From positions 1 to 64,000 of the forward strand of contig JAJRRA010000049.1 of NCBI GenBank assembly GCA_024279945.1: a DNA stretch of 64,000 nucleotides, written 5' to 3'. Shown one piece after another: positions 39,587-46,276 of this stretch; position 1 is the first letter of the stretch, and the number at the start of each line of letters is the position of its first letter. The notes below the pieces were generated by a model, which saw only the letters and a program-made list of their open reading frames with translations, was not told the DNA's origin and made no database searches. The position numbers and the translations under genes are program-made. Source of the DNA: Gammaproteobacteria bacterium. GTDB taxonomy: Bacteria; Pseudomonadota; Gammaproteobacteria; Xanthomonadales; SZUA-36.

Positions 39587-41911
39587 TTAAGGCCTGCTTG
39601 TATTCATTTTGATGTAATTGAGAATCTGGCCCCCGATGGGGTTGTCGGGGTGCATGGAAACCATTACTTCCGCGAGAGCCCTGGCTTCTTCAAACATACC
39701 CCTTTTCAGATAGTGATCCGCCAGGCCAAACTGAAAATCCAGGTTACGCGGCTCAAGCATCAGGGCCGAGCGCAGTTCATGCTCGGCTTTTGATGTATCT
39801 TGCAGGTGCTGGTAAAGGAGCCCCAGGTTGTAATGAATGCGGGCTTGCTCAGGCAGACCTGCAGATGCCTGTTCCAGAAAACTGACGGCTTCACTGTATT
39901 TCTGGACTTCAACCAGGAGAAGGCCGAGAGAATAGGCCATTTCATACAGTTCCGGTTGCTCCGCCACCACTTCCCGAAGAAGCTGTTCTGCCTGCTCATT
40001 CTGACCATTGCGGTTATACAACAAAGCCAGGTTGGACTTGGCCGGGAAGTAATGATTGTCGATCCGGATAGCCGCCTCGTACTGGCTGATCGCATCCTCC
40101 GGCCGATCCAGCTCGGCATACAGATTGCCCAGGTTATAGCGTCCAAAGGAGAAATCGGCTGAATACTCCATGGCGGCCTCGTACTCCTGCAGAACGGGCC
40201 GGAAAACTTCCTGTTGTGCGGCATCCAGGTACTTGTTCAAGTCTCCTGCCAGACGGCTGGCCGCCTGGATACGAACGGTTTTGACCGGGTCATACAATAG
40301 GGAGGCCAGCAGCTTTGCCAATTTTCCCTGGTCTGCTAACTCGATGGAGGCCACCGCGGTGCGACGCAACAGGGCATCCTCATCCATCAGGGCGGTTTCC
40401 AGGACCTGCGCGCTTTGCTCACCGGGATAATTCACCAACAGGGAAAGGGCAGTCGCCCGCACAATAACCGGGTAGAGCGGATCGCCGGCTAGTTGGATCA
40501 GTGCTGCACCGGCAGCGGGATCTCCCTGACGAGCACGGGCAATCGTGTTGCCGTAGTGGACTGTCTGGCCAGGACCGTACCATTTGCTGACGGTTTCTTG
40601 TGACCATTGCGACTGCCTGTCCACGTGGCAGCGAAGGCAGGCGTCCGGTGAGCCGATGGCGGCGCTGAGCGCTGGGTCTGGAACCCGAAAGCTGTGGTCC
40701 GGGCGATAGTCAACGCCCATATAAGTGCGGCCCGGCATATGGCACTGGACGCACTGCGCACCGGTGCCTACGGCAAACAGGACCTCACCTTCTGCTGACT
40801 TTATCGGCTCACCCGGCTCACCTTCCTGCTTGTGGAAGTGGTGTTCAGTAGTGTCGTATTGGGCGGCTTGGTGGCACTGCAGGCAAAGCGCGTTTCCCTC
40901 CTTGATCCGCTTGACGGAGTGAGCGTCATGGCAGTCGCTGCAGCGCACGTCGCGGTGGTACATTTTGCTTTGGGTGAATGAACCGTAGACGTAGACTTCT
41001 CCGCGGATCTGGCCGTCGGCAAAGTAAAGGTCTTCGGTCAGCAGGCTCGGCAGGAAATTGTCGAGGAAATCGGTTTCGGTATGGGTGTAGTCGCCCATGA
41101 TGGAGCGGCGGGAGTGGCAGGATGCACACAGCTCGACCTGTTCCTTCGAACTGATATGGGAAGTTTTCTGTTCCAACTCAAAATTATTCGCCTGTGGACG
41201 CGCCATTTCAGGCATCTCTGCCCAATTCACGTGCCGGGAACCCGGTCCGTGACAGGCTTCACAGCCCACATCAATATCTGACCAGGTGGTGTTGTAGCTG
41301 TCACTTACCGGGTCGTAGTTCTTCTGCAGGTTGGTGGAGTGGCACTCAGCGCACATACCGTTCCAGTTCTGTGCCGCATTGGTCCAGTACAGCCAGTCGT
41401 CCGGGTCGACCGGCCCTTCAGGCGGCACCCGGAACCATTTGTTGTCCCTGGCGTCCCAGGCGACAGGAAGGGTTTGAAGCCGCCCGCCGGGGAAAGGAAT
41501 CAGATACTGCTGCAGGGGGTACCAGCCGAAGGTATGAGTAATTTCAAAATCACCCATCTCCCCGCCCGGTCCATTGGTGTGAACAAAGAATTTCCCTTCT
41601 TTACGGTAGAAGCGCGAGGTGACTCCGTGCAGCGTGAATTCAGCATCATTGAAATCTCCCCGCACTGAAGTTTCGCTGGCAACGTCCATGGCCAGATCGT
41701 GGTGGGAGCCTTCCCATCTGTCGTATTCCCGGTTATGGCAGCCCTTGCAACTGGTGCTGCCGACAAAGCTTGAGACCGGAATGGGGACGGCCACTTCGCT
41801 CTTGTTTTTCACGGAGGTGAAGTAATAAACCGGCAGGGACAATACGATAACCATCGCTGCAATCAGGCCGGTCCACTCCCATGCTGCGGTGTTGTTGGCT
41901 GGCCGGCTCAT
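39587..41911 (-). CDS. Octaheme cytochrome c with C-terminal TPR domain
   Basis: This 774-residue protein has an N-terminal membrane anchor (about 15-33). Eight CXXCH sites follow: CKGCH, CAECH, CEACH, CASCH, CSDCH, CLQCH, CVQCH and CLRCH (about 55-440). Then come HEAT-like helices (about 470-570) and five or so TPR units to the end. The heme domain should be periplasmic and accept electrons from the adjacent Rieske/cytochrome b proteins; the TPR part suggests a docking partner. The start overlaps the Rieske gene by 4 bases (ATGA). I know of no named function. Confidence 0.85.
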   Translation of the reverse strand: MSRPANNTAAWEWTGLIAAMVIVLSLPVYYFTSVKNKSEVAVPIPVSSFVGSTSCKGCHNREYDRWEGSHHDLAMDVASETSVRGDFNDAEFTLHGVTSRFYRKEGKFFVHTNGPGGEMGDFEITHTFGWYPLQQYLIPFPGGRLQTLPVAWDARDNKWFRVPPEGPVDPDDWLYWTNAAQNWNGMCAECHSTNLQKNYDPVSDSYNTTWSDIDVGCEACHGPGSRHVNWAEMPEMARPQANNFELEQKTSHISSKEQVELCASCHSRRSIMGDYTHTETDFLDNFLPSLLTEDLYFADGQIRGEVYVYGSFTQSKMYHRDVRCSDCHDAHSVKRIKEGNALCLQCHQAAQYDTTEHHFHKQEGEPGEPIKSAEGEVLFAVGTGAQCVQCHMPGRTYMGVDYRPDHSFRVPDPALSAAIGSPDACLRCHVDRQSQWSQETVSKWYGPGQTVHYGNTIARARQGDPAAGAALIQLAGDPLYPVIVRATALSLLVNYPGEQSAQVLETALMDEDALLRRTAVASIELADQGKLAKLLASLLYDPVKTVRIQAASRLAGDLNKYLDAAQQEVFRPVLQEYEAAMEYSADFSFGRYNLGNLYAELDRPEDAISQYEAAIRIDNHYFPAKSNLALLYNRNGQNEQAEQLLREVVAEQPELYEMAYSLGLLLVEVQKYSEAVSFLEQASAGLPEQARIHYNLGLLYQHLQDTSKAEHELRSALMLEPRNLDFQFGLADHYLKRGMFEEARALAEVMVSMHPDNPIGGQILNYIKMNTSRP

Positions 41912-42405
41912 GTTTTACCCGGATACACGATCTGGTCCGCCGCATATTCAGACCGCCTTTCCGGCCTGGTGGCATTTACCCTGATGACATTGTTTTCAAT
42001 GGCCACCGGGTACAGGTCCAGTGCGCGGGGCGCCGGCGGGCTGATGACATCGCCCCGGATATCGAACTCGGAGGAATGGCAAGGGCAGATGAACCGGTTT
42101 TTTCCAGACACCCAGGGAACCGTACAGCTTAAATGGGTGCAACTTCGTGACAGGGCCAGGAAGCCACCATCATCCAGGCGGGCCAGGTAAAATTTTCCAC
42201 GTACGAAAGCAGTTACTGTGCCGGGCTCAAAACTGTCGACCGATCCGGCGATAATGATTGCATCCTGATTCGTTGCAGCCGTTCGTGATTTTCGGGGTTT
42301 AAAGTAAATGATCAGCAGCGCGATCAATTCAGCGAAGGCCAGGGTGCCCAGTAGCGTCCAAAGTCTGTTGAAAAAGGACCGGCGGGAAAGGGTCTGGTTT
42401 TCCAT
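41908..42405 (-). CDS. Rieske 2Fe-2S protein
   Basis: The 165-residue protein from ATG 42405 has an N-terminal SRRSFF sequence (Tat-like) before a membrane helix (about 15-34). The Rieske site is complete: Cys89 and His91 in SCTHLSC, Cys107 and His110 in CPCHSSEFD, with Cys94 and Cys109 placed for the disulfide. It starts 5 bases after the cytochrome b stop and overlaps the octaheme gene. An upstream extension of the frame lies inside cytochrome b and is not real. Confidence 0.92.
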   Translation of the reverse strand: MENQTLSRRSFFNRLWTLLGTLAFAELIALLIIYFKPRKSRTAATNQDAIIIAGSVDSFEPGTVTAFVRGKFYLARLDDGGFLALSRSCTHLSCTVPWVSGKNRFICPCHSSEFDIRGDVISPPAPRALDLYPVAIENNVIRVNATRPERRSEYAADQIVYPGKT

Positions 42406-42410
42406 GTTGT

Positions 42411-43841
42411 CTATCCTGCCCACATCAATTGCATACCGGCACCCCTGAACCAGATCCCAATGACCGTCACAACCACGAAGGCGGTCATCAGCAGGGTAAA
42501 CAGAGCCTGGATTGCTTCGTTGTTGCTTGCTTTGAATCCCCGCTTCATCAGAATATAGAAGCCTGCGCAAGCGGTCAGCACAAAGGCAAAGGGCAGCAGG
42601 CCGTTAGCCGTCATTCCGGGTGTGCTGCTCAGGCCTGAATTGATGACAAACTCATCGAGCCACACGCTGGCAACTGTGGCGGCAGTTGCCAGTACAACCG
42701 CAACAAGCGCCATTTTACGACCTTTGACAGAAGCAAACCAAACACCGGCCGTTTCGACTTCGTAGCTGATGTACGGCAGGGATAGCAGCCCGAATACAAG
42801 TAACAGGGGAATGACCAGGAGTGCATATAGCGGATGAAAGTGCATCAGCAATTCCTGGATTCCCATAAAGTACCAGGGCGCCTTGGTGGGGTTGGGGCTC
42901 AGGCCGGGATTGGCCTGATCGGCAAGCGGGGCATTGAGCAGCATGGATAGGATGAGGAGAACGGCCAGCAATACCAGGGCCATCGTCACCTCACGCGCGA
43001 TCAGGTTTGGCATGGTGTTGACTTCAGCGCCCCGGATATCCGGGGGTTCTGCGGCTGAGCGGGGGATTACCAGGCCGCCCGCCTTGCGAATTCGCCAAAA
43101 GTGGAAGGGCAGGAAAAACAGCAGCAGAGCAGGCAAAATGGCAGTATGAATGGCATAGAAATTCATCAGGGTCGCCTTGCCCGGTTCTGATCCTCCAAGT
43201 ATCCCCTCTTTGAGCCCTGTCCCCACCCACGGAATGTAATCCAGCATGGAAGTGCTGATGGTGACCGCCCAGTAGGCCTGCTGATCCCAGGGCAGGAGGT
43301 AGCCGGTAAAATTGGAAAGAACAATGGCGGCGAAAAGAGTCAATCCGATGAGCCAGTTAAACTGGCGCGGTGCAACGAACGCGCCGGTATAAAAGACCCG
43401 TAAAAAATGCAGGAAGCTTATAAAAACGAGTCCGTTGGCACCCCAGCGGTGAAGATTTCTGACTAACTGCCCGAAAGGCACCTGAGTATTCAGGTAGGCG
43501 ATGGAGTCATAGGCTGCGCCGGGAGAAGGCTGATACACAAACTTGAGCATCAGGCCGGTAGCGAAAAGAACAAAAACCAGCACAGCGGCCATGCCACCCA
43601 GACCCCAGGTCAGGGATAGCTTAAGACTGCGCTCCGGAACGGTGGCTGGCCTGAAGTGTAGCAAAAAGCTGTGCAGATATTTCCGCGAGTCGTTCGGCTC
43701 ACTTTCCGTCGCCTGATTTCCAGGAAAAATTGATAAGCGGATGCGTTGCAGGATATTCAAGATGTTGGTGTCACTGATTCTTCTTGCAATTATGCTGTCT
43801 GGAACCAAATAGTTTACGCAAATTTGCCGTGCTGGGCTCAA
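42411..43841 (-). CDS. Cytochrome b of a bc/b6f-like complex, fused N- and C-terminal halves
   Basis: The heme His pairs are His131/His145 (x13 spacing) and His232/His247 (x14 spacing). The x14 spacing in the second pair is the b6f-like form. About eight helices follow the order of cytochrome b6 plus subunit IV. The Qo motif reads APWY (321-324, PNPTKAPWYFMG) instead of PEWY. Quinol oxidation with electron transfer to Rieske and the octaheme protein is inferred. The start is unclear: TTG 43841 gives a long hydrophilic N-terminus; the conserved part begins near residue 55. Confidence 0.88.
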   Translation of the reverse strand: MSPARQICVNYLVPDSIIARRISDTNILNILQRIRLSIFPGNQATESEPNDSRKYLHSFLLHFRPATVPERSLKLSLTWGLGGMAAVLVFVLFATGLMLKFVYQPSPGAAYDSIAYLNTQVPFGQLVRNLHRWGANGLVFISFLHFLRVFYTGAFVAPRQFNWLIGLTLFAAIVLSNFTGYLLPWDQQAYWAVTISTSMLDYIPWVGTGLKEGILGGSEPGKATLMNFYAIHTAILPALLLFFLPFHFWRIRKAGGLVIPRSAAEPPDIRGAEVNTMPNLIAREVTMALVLLAVLLILSMLLNAPLADQANPGLSPNPTKAPWYFMGIQELLMHFHPLYALLVIPLLLVFGLLSLPYISYEVETAGVWFASVKGRKMALVAVVLATAATVASVWLDEFVINSGLSSTPGMTANGLLPFAFVLTACAGFYILMKRGFKASNNEAIQALFTLLMTAFVVVTVIGIWFRGAGMQLMWAG

Positions 43842-43951: not shown

Positions 43952-46276
43952 GTGAGGCAAACAGTCTCTGCTATAGTCAGTAAAATGCATTGGCCAGCAT
44001 CAATTCCATCATCAGCTTTCCTGCTCTGCATGTTCATTTCCAACATCTGCCCTGCAGATATTTCCGCCAACAGTATCAGCAAGGCGCCGCTGAGTATGAA
44101 TCACAGAGCGAATTCACTGTCCTCCGGTAATGATTGCCCCGTCGAGTCGGCTGGAGGCGGTCGTGCCCTTAGCGTTGCCTCCGCAGGGGACTATTGTTGG
44201 GAATACGAAGCCAGTGTAAGCGGCCCCCCCGGCAATCCTCGCCCGGAATCGGATATCTCGGTCAGTGGCAGCGCGGCATTTGGAGCACTGGAAATCAACA
44301 CCTGGGCCGAGCGGACCCTCACTATCGCAAACAGCGGTACCGCCGATCTTCTTATTGGAAGCCTGAATGGATTGTCAGCGCCGTTTTCCATTGTGTTCGA
44401 TGCCTGCTCGTCAGGCACGCTCGCGCCGGGATCCTTCTGCACGGTATCGCTGCGATTTTCACCCACTGTTGCAGGCTATCAACGCGCCACCCTGAAGGTA
44501 TCGTCCCATGACCCAAACGAATCGGATATCGTTATCACCGCCAGCGGCGCAGGAACGAAATTCGACAGCGGAATCAATCCGGATTTCGACCCACTGAACG
44601 GTAACGGCAATGTCACCCGCAGCCATCTGACAGCCGACACACTCCTGAATGGATCCGATCCTGGTAGTCGGGTTGATCTTTCAGCTTATGCAGTCCCCGG
44701 AAATGCAGCCCGTCCGGATCACGTTTTCGAGGGATCGCTGGAGCTGTTTGGTGAATCCGTTGGTGGTTCCTTTAGCGTGGTCAAGGATACTTTTCGTCTC
44801 ACCGACAACAAGGATTCCACTCGAAAACACCTGCCTGAATTCAACTTCGAATTTGTCCAGACAGGTACCCACCTGCTACCCGTTGAACGTGGGACGATGA
44901 GCGATACGCACCCCGAGTGGGAATATATCCTCGAAGCCGGCCGTGTCTGGAAGGAGAATGGTGACCATGGTTTCAGCCGTGCCGCCATTCCCTTTACCTT
45001 GCATGAGAAAAACGCCAACTGCATGCACAATGGCGTGTTGACTTTTCTGTTCAGGGACGATGGCTCTATTTCCCGGGTCGCCTACCAGATATCCAGCGAA
45101 ACCTGCCTGTACTTCAAGGCAGACATGTGGGGCTTGCTCGATGCAGTCTATTCACCTGCACCTGTTGTCAATGCCGATAAGCTGCGCCGGCAGTATCAGG
45201 ATGAAGTGAACGGGCGCATGCCGGTCAAGCCCATCTCTGAACTGGCTGTTGATTATCCAGGCACGGATCCGGAGCAGTTCGGCAGTGCGGCGGAGACCAA
45301 CCCGGAACATATGACGATCTACGGCTTCATTATCGATGGCGTTCATTACGCTGGTGGCTGTGAAACCCGTTACGGCACTTATCCCTACTGCGACAATCTG
45401 GTCATCCCGTCCTATTCAACCGCAAAATCTGTCTTCGCCGGTCTTGCAATGATGCGCATGGAACTGAAACATCCCGGATTCATGGGCAATATCGTGGCTG
45501 ATCAGGTGCCGGATTGCGCGGCCAACGGCAATTGGAATGATGTGACCTACGCAAATGTCATCGACATGGCAAGCGGCAACTACGGCTCCGGGCTGTATAT
45601 GAGTGACGAACACTCCCTGCATACTGGCCGCCTGTTCCAGGCGCTTGATCACGCCAGCAAGATCGACTACTCCTGCACACAATATTCGCGCAAGAGCGCA
45701 CCGGGCAGTAAGTGGGTGTATCACACTTCAGACACCTACATCCTCGGTACGGCAATGAACGCGGAGATCAAGGATCTGGAAGGTGCAGACCAGGATATTT
45801 TCACCGATATGCTGGTGGAGGAAATCTTCAAGCCAATCGGAACCAGCCCCACATCGCATGTTACCCGCCGTACCTATGACACGGTGCAGCAGCCCTTCAC
45901 CGGATGGGGGCTTTCATTCCTGCGTGATGATGTCGCCAAATTGTCGCAGTTCCTGAATGTTGACGATGGCATGGTCGATGGGCAAATGTTACTTGACCCC
46001 CTTGAGTTTGATGCTGCCCTGCAACGCGATCCGGGTGATCGTGGGCTCAGTCCATCAACTGATCTCAAATATAATAATGGTTTCTGGGCGCGAGAGATCA
46101 AGTCAAGTACCGCTTGCGCTATGGATACCTGGGTGCCCTTTATGTCCGGTTTTGGCGGAATTTCGGTGGTCTTGCTGCCAAACGATACGACTTACTATGC
46201 TTTCAGCGATGACAATACCTTTCTTTGGATGGATGCAGCGCTGGAATCGCACCGAATCCGCAGCTTGTGTCCTTGA
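43952..46276 (+). CDS. Secreted beta-lactamase-fold serine hydrolase with N-terminal Ig-like domain
   Basis: The 774-residue protein has a signal peptide (about 20-38). A HYDIN/ASPM-like Ig domain follows (about 105-205; ALEINTWAERTLTIANSGTA, LAPGSFCTVSLRFSPTVAG), then an unknown beta region. The C-terminal serine hydrolase domain has SYSTAKSVFAG (Ser near 489, Lys near 492) and WVYHTSDTYILG in place of the usual Tyr-x-Asn. It resembles esterase EstB/penicillin-binding relatives; substrate unknown. Many paired Cys suggest disulfides outside the cytoplasm. Not part of an obvious operon. Confidence 0.75.
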   Translation: MRQTVSAIVSKMHWPASIPSSAFLLCMFISNICPADISANSISKAPLSMNHRANSLSSGNDCPVESAGGGRALSVASAGDYCWEYEASVSGPPGNPRPESDISVSGSAAFGALEINTWAERTLTIANSGTADLLIGSLNGLSAPFSIVFDACSSGTLAPGSFCTVSLRFSPTVAGYQRATLKVSSHDPNESDIVITASGAGTKFDSGINPDFDPLNGNGNVTRSHLTADTLLNGSDPGSRVDLSAYAVPGNAARPDHVFEGSLELFGESVGGSFSVVKDTFRLTDNKDSTRKHLPEFNFEFVQTGTHLLPVERGTMSDTHPEWEYILEAGRVWKENGDHGFSRAAIPFTLHEKNANCMHNGVLTFLFRDDGSISRVAYQISSETCLYFKADMWGLLDAVYSPAPVVNADKLRRQYQDEVNGRMPVKPISELAVDYPGTDPEQFGSAAETNPEHMTIYGFIIDGVHYAGGCETRYGTYPYCDNLVIPSYSTAKSVFAGLAMMRMELKHPGFMGNIVADQVPDCAANGNWNDVTYANVIDMASGNYGSGLYMSDEHSLHTGRLFQALDHASKIDYSCTQYSRKSAPGSKWVYHTSDTYILGTAMNAEIKDLEGADQDIFTDMLVEEIFKPIGTSPTSHVTRRTYDTVQQPFTGWGLSFLRDDVAKLSQFLNVDDGMVDGQMLLDPLEFDAALQRDPGDRGLSPSTDLKYNNGFWAREIKSSTACAMDTWVPFMSGFGGISVVLLPNDTTYYAFSDDNTFLWMDAALESHRIRSLCP

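Follow-up and report, generated by a model that had tools for sequence, protein, structure and literature searches.

A candidate Rieske/cytochrome b complex with an octahaem-TPR exit subunit and an APWY Qo motif in Gammaproteobacteria

Introduction

What kind of complex might be formed by a cytochrome b, a Rieske protein and an eight-haem cytochrome whose genes lie end to end in a bacterium that also encodes a canonical cytochrome bc1, and how should one read a quinol oxidation (Qo) motif of APWY at the place of PEWY? This question is raised by three genes at positions 39587 to 43841 of a 64,000-nucleotide stretch of DNA (the window; contig JAJRRA010000049.1, positions 1 to 64,000) from a gammaproteobacterium of the order Xanthomonadales, SZUA-36 (assembly GCA_024279945.1). 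The source genome comprises 3.92 Mb in 91 contigs and is 97% complete; the window lies on the contig designated C50. An initial annotation, made from the letters of the window, had interpreted the trio as a variant quinol:cytochrome oxidoreductase with an unusual electron exit and possibly a different quinone.

In this study, we followed up this proposal by comparative genomics, phylogenetic analysis and structure prediction. The trio is best read as a three-subunit Rieske/cytochrome b quinol:multihaem-cytochrome oxidoreductase, on the b6f-like side of the family, that would operate beside bc1 in ubiquinone-containing Gammaproteobacteria; we assign this reading a probability of about 0.72. It is supported by intact ligands for all b haems and for the iron-sulfur cluster, by conserved linkage of the trio, and by the occurrence of a canonical bc1 in the same genome.

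Results and discussion

Three genes with intact cofactor ligands

The three genes are all located on the minus strand, in the order cytochrome b, Rieske, octahaem cytochrome with tetratricopeptide repeats (octahaem-TPR), and the coordinates initially assigned to them were correct. The open reading frame (ORF) of the cytochrome b, which is fused and b6/subunit IV-like, spans 42411..43841 (476 codons counted from the first TTG); judged from its relatives in the family, translation likely starts near TTG 43760. The Rieske [2Fe-2S] protein (41908..42405, 165 aa) has a hydrophobic N-terminal stretch. The ORF caller places its start at 42570; the position behind the cytochrome b stop, together with homologues, indicates ATG 42405 as the likely start, five bases beyond that stop. 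At its other end, the Rieske gene overlaps by four bases with the octahaem gene (39587..41911). An ORF starting at 43952 runs divergently, and minor-pilin-like genes (recognized by eye) converge from the opposite side, so the unit apparently consists of just three genes. The divergent ORF (43952-46276) codes for 774 aa, with a C-terminal half that by eye resembles serine hydrolases; Pfam gave no match for it at 1e-8.

The cytochrome b matches PF00033 (above cut-off) and PF13631. Its haem ligands are arranged in the pairs His131/His145 and His232/His247 (43101..43451), and they are predicted to bind two bis-His b haems. Relatives were collected by scanning one genome per species with two peptide patterns that avoid the Qo site. 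Of at least 589 relatives found, the best 80 were kept, and all 80 have the same four histidines with identical spacing. This spacing recurs in the bc1 cytochrome b of the same genome and in a cytochrome b-ferredoxin fusion that the genome also encodes. The x14 spacing of the second pair, initially taken as a b6f mark, is thus no mark of b6f. The fusion is itself a third cytochrome b (contig C77 of genome G000, about 18-25 kb; L007:1414-3522 and L048) of 702 aa, with an N-terminal cytochrome b domain followed by a two-cluster ferredoxin. It has LDWYY at the Qo-like place, lies beside two COX1-family genes and a gene that by eye resembles SCO, and has matches within similarly long frames in several genomes of the family.

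The Rieske protein was predicted to be full-length, and the data agree: PF00355 matches above cut-off (E=1e-10), and both cluster motifs, CTHLSC and CPCHSS (42070..42141), are complete, their Cys and His residues being invariant in seven aligned rows including the window. The same genome carries a second, petA-like Rieske protein with a UCR_Fe-S_N domain (G000:C78, about 65 kb; L004:1072-1761, L049:4605-5294), on a contig with no cytochrome b match.

The third gene encodes an eight-haem cytochrome with TPR repeats, as had been proposed for the position of cytochrome c1; PF13435, PF09699 and TPR families match it above cut-off, and its C-terminal part combines HEAT-like and TPR repeats. Residues 8-35 (41807..41890) form a helix in the model and are hydrophobic in five of five family rows, which suggests an N-terminal membrane anchor. 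The eight haem c sites follow (residues 55-429; 40625..41749), the first two haems being separated by a beta region (strands at 75-161 in the model). The window protein has eight CXXCH motifs, and eight haem sites occur in all 18 aligned rows, window included; haem 8 is bound by CX4CH in six of the 18. The HEAT-like helical repeats (residues 453-554; 40250..40555) are modelled mostly with a predicted local distance difference test score (pLDDT) above 80 and match the engineered alphaRep chain 6ft5 in profile searches (E=4e-9). They are followed by the TPR repeats (residues 564-771; 39599..40222; TPR_19, E=4e-20), which also appear in the model.

The nearest known families and a possible reductase

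The initial annotation also called the cytochrome b fused and b6f-like. It is indeed one fused ORF, and its likeness to b6f rests on profile scores: cytochrome b6 ranks first among the solved chains (E=6e-50), ahead of the best bc1 chain (E=1e-37). The structural model (pLDDT 83.7) has nine long predicted transmembrane helices, two more than b6 and subunit IV together. In the 50 VIA-align rows shown, the matches are cytochrome b chains of complex III or bcc (Z 28-32 over about 323-345 residues); cytochrome b6 chains are missing from these rows, which says nothing against b6 likeness. At the position of the haem cn cysteine (Cys35 of b6), the window has Gly, and Cys occurs in 14 of the 80 relatives.

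Among NCBIfam models, the top match is ExtP (NF040969; 272 bits against a cut-off of 290), and ExtQ is fifth. In a phylum sample of 299 genomes, none reached the ExtP cut-off; the window ranks first with 274 bits, and the next genome, G150, scores 211 bits.

These matches bear on an alternative in which the octahaem subunit is a terminal reductase, for a nitrogen or sulfur compound or a metal oxyanion, that is fed by the cytochrome b and Rieske proteins and does not act as a relay. The nearest named cytochrome b family, although matched below its cut-off, belongs to a Geobacter selenite/tellurite cluster. The octahaem protein itself has a partial match, just under the cut-off, to PF02335, the cytochrome c552 (NrfA) family (residues 383-441; 23.9 bits against 24.1), and partial profile matches to the solved multihaem chains 6i5b (residues 319-446, E=2e-13) and 6qvm. 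Donation by a Rieske/cytochrome b pair to an octahaem nitrite reductase has been proposed for Caldithrix, and homologues that stand alone, without cytochrome b, and look secreted are common. However, neither the families listed nor the 60 of 175 solved chains listed include a known multihaem reductase that matches over the full length. The model does not help to reveal an open haem, as its haem region is of low confidence, and the Foldseek list consists of TPR and other helical-repeat chains. We consider a terminal reductase unlikely, yet the strongest of the competitors.

The Qo motif

The Qo stretch of the window reads K-A-P-W-Y-F (residues 320-325), and A321-P322-W323-Y324 (42870..42881) aligns with P-E-W-Y, so the APWY reading holds. 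Farther along lies the pair Q329-E330 (42852..42857), its acid eight residues beyond the place of the missing Glu; the pair occupies the place of the bc1 Tyr-Ala and which we take to correspond to Tyr279-Ala280 in yeast numbering. A survey of the homologues, as had been suggested, gave a uniform answer: all of the best 80 read [A/S][P/A]WY (APWY in 71, AAWY in eight, SPWY in one) and none of these nearest relatives, which are 80 of at least 589, has PEWY. At the place of Tyr279, Gln is present in 80 of 80, and it is followed by Glu in 78 and by Asp in two. Within the family, KAPWY is found in all nine rows but that of genome G005, which has KAPWF. A local mutation or an assembly error could be ruled out as the origin of APWY, since the same type of motif occurs in all 80 relatives.

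The view that loss of the Glu is peculiar to this operon finds no support. It is near-fixed among the relatives, and the canonical bc1 cytochrome b of the same genome has PVWY followed by Tyr-Ala. Moreover, among 54 proteobacterial cytochrome b loci we read PVWY in 41, PTWY in three, PLWY in two, and PSWY, PEWY and APWY in one each, the last being the window; the reading pattern admitted certain second letters only, and five loci gave no motif. The Glu was missing in 47 of the 48 readable controls other than APWY. The single PEWY (locus L132, genome G150) is accompanied by a Glu near the invariant acid of the APWY branch (PEWYFLFLYELL).

Judged from these alignments, absence of the Glu characterizes the branch and does not in itself indicate a new quinone. 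According to a review (PMC9162462), the second residue of the motif shows systematic variation that goes along with potentials and with the type of quinone; replacing the glutamate compromises turnover only in part, and its role remains unsettled. The conserved Gln-Glu pair is more telling than the missing Glu. One may tentatively imagine a Rieske/cytochrome b branch with a rewired Qo site, in which the proton acceptor would have moved eight residues to the invariant acid E330 beside an invariant Gln, and whose octahaem-TPR subtype would have come from menaquinone-using anaerobes and been adjusted to ubiquinone after reaching Gammaproteobacteria. To our knowledge, residue 280 of bc1 is not among the residues of the pocket, and this counts against a role for E330; we regard the scenario as a whole as possible and the less probable outcome.

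Conservation of the trio and its origin

In a tree of named relatives, the window cytochrome b falls in a branch of 36 rows with a support of 100 in the SH-like approximate likelihood ratio test (SH-aLRT). Two labels in this tree inflate the count of octahaem members: fam_L038 (genome G033) bears the octahaem label on a contig that stops short of the gene, and fam_L041 and L051 represent a single contig. The order cytochrome b, Rieske, octahaem-TPR is preserved in 19 of the 21 named clade members outside Chloroflexota, which carry seven phylum labels; in the other two, the contig ends first. Two of the 19 trios have an octahaem gene cut by the contig end (L059, L071), and two have an extra ORF between the cytochrome b and Rieske genes (L071, L076). 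Seven of the eight Chloroflexota members encode a three-haem cytochrome instead, and the eighth (L062) shows neither a Rieske nor a c-type gene. Many, not all, of 51 more distant relatives show the order Rieske, cytochrome b, multihaem; none of the multihaem genes tested among them gave a full match to the operon octahaem profile.

Neighbouring genes were considered as a clue to the electron acceptor and dropped: the 20 flanking proteins scanned (19 neighbours in relatives and one in the window) differ between loci and include no common partner. Two relatives have sulfatase genes next to the trio (L055:12449-13990 and L073:6268-7737), and these look incidental; a sulfatase-like gene (by eye; L205:7312-8838) also adjoins a stand-alone octahaem-TPR gene.

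Of 369 gammaproteobacterial genomes sampled, 31 encode octahaem-TPR proteins (E up to 1e-30). At the 29 loci other than the window, neither cytochrome b nor Rieske was found in a flank of up to about 1.5 kb, less at contig ends, and many of the stand-alone proteins start with a stretch that by eye resembles a signal or lipoprotein peptide. The commonness of the family without cytochrome b is compatible with the octahaem-TPR protein being a separate periplasmic scaffold or sensor, merely co-transcribed with the cytochrome b and Rieske genes. However, the trio encodes no alternative c-type exit subunit, and the operon-type proteins are a lineage of their own. In a tree of 45 octahaem proteins, 21 operon-type sequences and one unlinked protein (genome G623) form a clade (SH-aLRT 100) that excludes the remaining 23. 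This tree omits the cut genes of L059 and L071 as well as five of the 29 stand-alone loci, whose proteins have at most 650 aa. The main groups within the clade agree with those in the cytochrome b tree: Bacteroidota with Caldithrix, L055 with L075, L065 with L079, the window family near Desulfobacteraceae, and Woeseiaceae apart. This agreement was read from the main groups, without a formal congruence test. A scaffold or sensor role is therefore highly improbable in our judgement. Given the conserved trio and the separation of its octahaem subunits, as one clade, from the stand-alone proteins, the three proteins probably work together, and the proposal of a variant quinol:cytochrome oxidoreductase with an unusual exit gains from genes that appear to have travelled together.

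The simplest reading of the two trees would be a single recruitment of a stand-alone cytochrome, followed by transfer of the whole trio, which would have entered Gammaproteobacteria at least twice; the window family probably acquired it from anaerobes. Both trees were built by quick searches with SH-aLRT as the only support and were midpoint-rooted, so that the direction of transfer is only inferred.

Ubiquinone genomes with a trio-type and a bc1-like cytochrome b

Within the family, nine of 37 genomes contain the cytochrome b of the trio, against none of 24 from the order's other families; in two of the nine (G002 and G033), the contig ends ahead of the Rieske and octahaem genes. The initial annotation had advised looking for a canonical petABC elsewhere in the genome. 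It is present in the window genome, with the PVWY and Tyr-Ala noted above, and a bc1-like cytochrome b match occurs in nine of nine genomes bearing the trio-type cytochrome b (petABC itself was read in the window genome only).

The suggestion of a different quinone was not borne out. The MqnA/D family of the futalosine route (PF02621) is present in none of the nine genomes and MenD above cut-off in none, with weak sub-cut-off matches in all nine, while UbiG is above cut-off in eight, the remaining genome being 77% complete. By the families tested, the nine are ubiquinone genomes, and menaquinone, an unlikely substrate, was rejected as the different quinone.

Proposed function

In the oxidoreductase reading, assembly into one complex, a Q cycle and the following order of electrons may be inferred from the composition of the trio. 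Ubiquinol would be oxidized at the Qo site. One electron would travel to the Qi site by way of both b haems. The Rieske domain would hand the other to the octahaem-TPR cytochrome, membrane-anchored and taking the place of cytochrome c1 or f. The next carrier could be a partner in the periplasm or outer membrane, for which the TPR/HEAT arm might serve as the docking site.

Several observations weigh against this reading. The cytochrome b is distributed patchily in the family, many of whose 37 genomes are incomplete, and most of the octahaem-TPR proteins found in Gammaproteobacteria lack linkage to a cytochrome b. In genome G623 (one contig, 72% complete), an octahaem gene of the operon type has neither a cytochrome b nor a Rieske gene nearby, and the only cytochrome b match of this genome is bc1-like. 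No further partner is encoded alongside the trio. Finally, ubiquinol, at about +100 mV, is a poor donor for low-potential bis-His multihaem cytochromes, and low potentials are common in this class; either the octahaem potentials are raised or the flow is reversed. The G623 gene (L171, L200) codes for an anchored octahaem-TPR protein and adjoins genes that by eye resemble a resistance-nodulation-division (RND) efflux pair.

Reversed flow would mean that the octahaem-TPR protein takes electrons from an external or periplasmic donor and that the cytochrome b/Rieske pair moves them uphill to ubiquinone at the expense of the proton gradient. For the forward route, the nine ubiquinone genomes, which lack the menaquinone families, already have a bc1-like cytochrome b, and Nitrospina gracilis is described with both an octahaem Rieske/cytochrome b operon and reverse flow through a bc complex. 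Neither a donor oxidase nor a porin-cytochrome conduit was seen in the ORF list of the window (by eye) or among the scanned neighbours in relatives; a genome-wide search was not made. Many close relatives belong to groups that we take to be menaquinone-using anaerobes, in which forward flow is expected. We judge reverse flow improbable, slightly more so than a terminal reductase. The oxidoreductase reading overlaps with these two alternatives, from which it differs in the direction of flow and the final partner only, and the probabilities do not sum to one.

Features worth following are the APWY...QE signature, the recruited octahaem-TPR exit, and the presence of both beside bc1 in ubiquinone bacteria. 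A natural branch in which the Qo Glu is missing and the same stretch holds an invariant acid and Gln makes it possible to test proton exit from Qo by comparison. The compact three-gene module would wire the quinone pool to a multihaem cytochrome, and its occurrence in bacteria that keep a normal bc1 makes the two exits comparable within one cell.

Comparison with known systems

Rieske/cytochrome b complexes with a multihaem exit have been proposed in Caldithrix, Methanoperedens, Kuenenia, Nitrospina and Geobacter. In Caldithrix, the pair described adjoins nap genes; we do not equate it with locus L057.

The complexes of anammox Kuenenia and of Nitrospina combine b6 and subunit IV with a hexahaem or octahaem cytochrome (PMC12954380, PMC3578206). 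Like the trio, they have a b6f-like cytochrome b, a Rieske protein, and a multihaem c-type cytochrome that replaces cytochrome f or c1, and the Nitrospina relative L115 shares the KAPWYF motif of the window. In the window, however, the cytochrome b is fused, the Rieske gene lies downstream, and the trio includes no NAD(P) oxidoreductase. The octahaem subunits of L115, L119, L120, L129 and L130 did not match the operon octahaem profile. In place of the Gly of the window, L115 and 13 further relatives carry the cysteine for haem cn.

Geobacter extOPQ encodes the Rieske protein ExtO, the cytochrome b ExtP and the membrane protein ExtQ (PMC5877670, PMC2825233). The window cytochrome b hits the ExtP and ExtQ models, and multihaem c-type proteins adjoin in both systems. 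Yet ExtP and ExtQ are separate proteins, whereas the window has one fused chain that scores below the ExtP cut-off, and the Geobacter cluster includes several further multihaem proteins and an outer-membrane porin, none of which belongs to the trio.

The bc1 of the same genome (petABC) shares with the trio a Rieske protein, a cytochrome b and the absence of the Qo Glu, and the trio cytochrome b model matches solved complex III cytochrome b. The two cytochromes b are 32% identical over residues 79-255 only, and PVWY with Tyr-Ala and a cytochrome c1 exit contrasts with APWY with Gln-Glu and an octahaem exit. Cytochrome b6f provides the closest solved-chain profile match, but the window lacks the haem cn cysteine, PEWY and cytochrome f, and has a fused chain with extra helices. 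We found no description of the subtype or of the APWY...QE signature in the literature searched, a search that mostly did not reach subscription papers. The trio is a real and conserved, apparently undescribed, subtype of the known multihaem-exit complexes.

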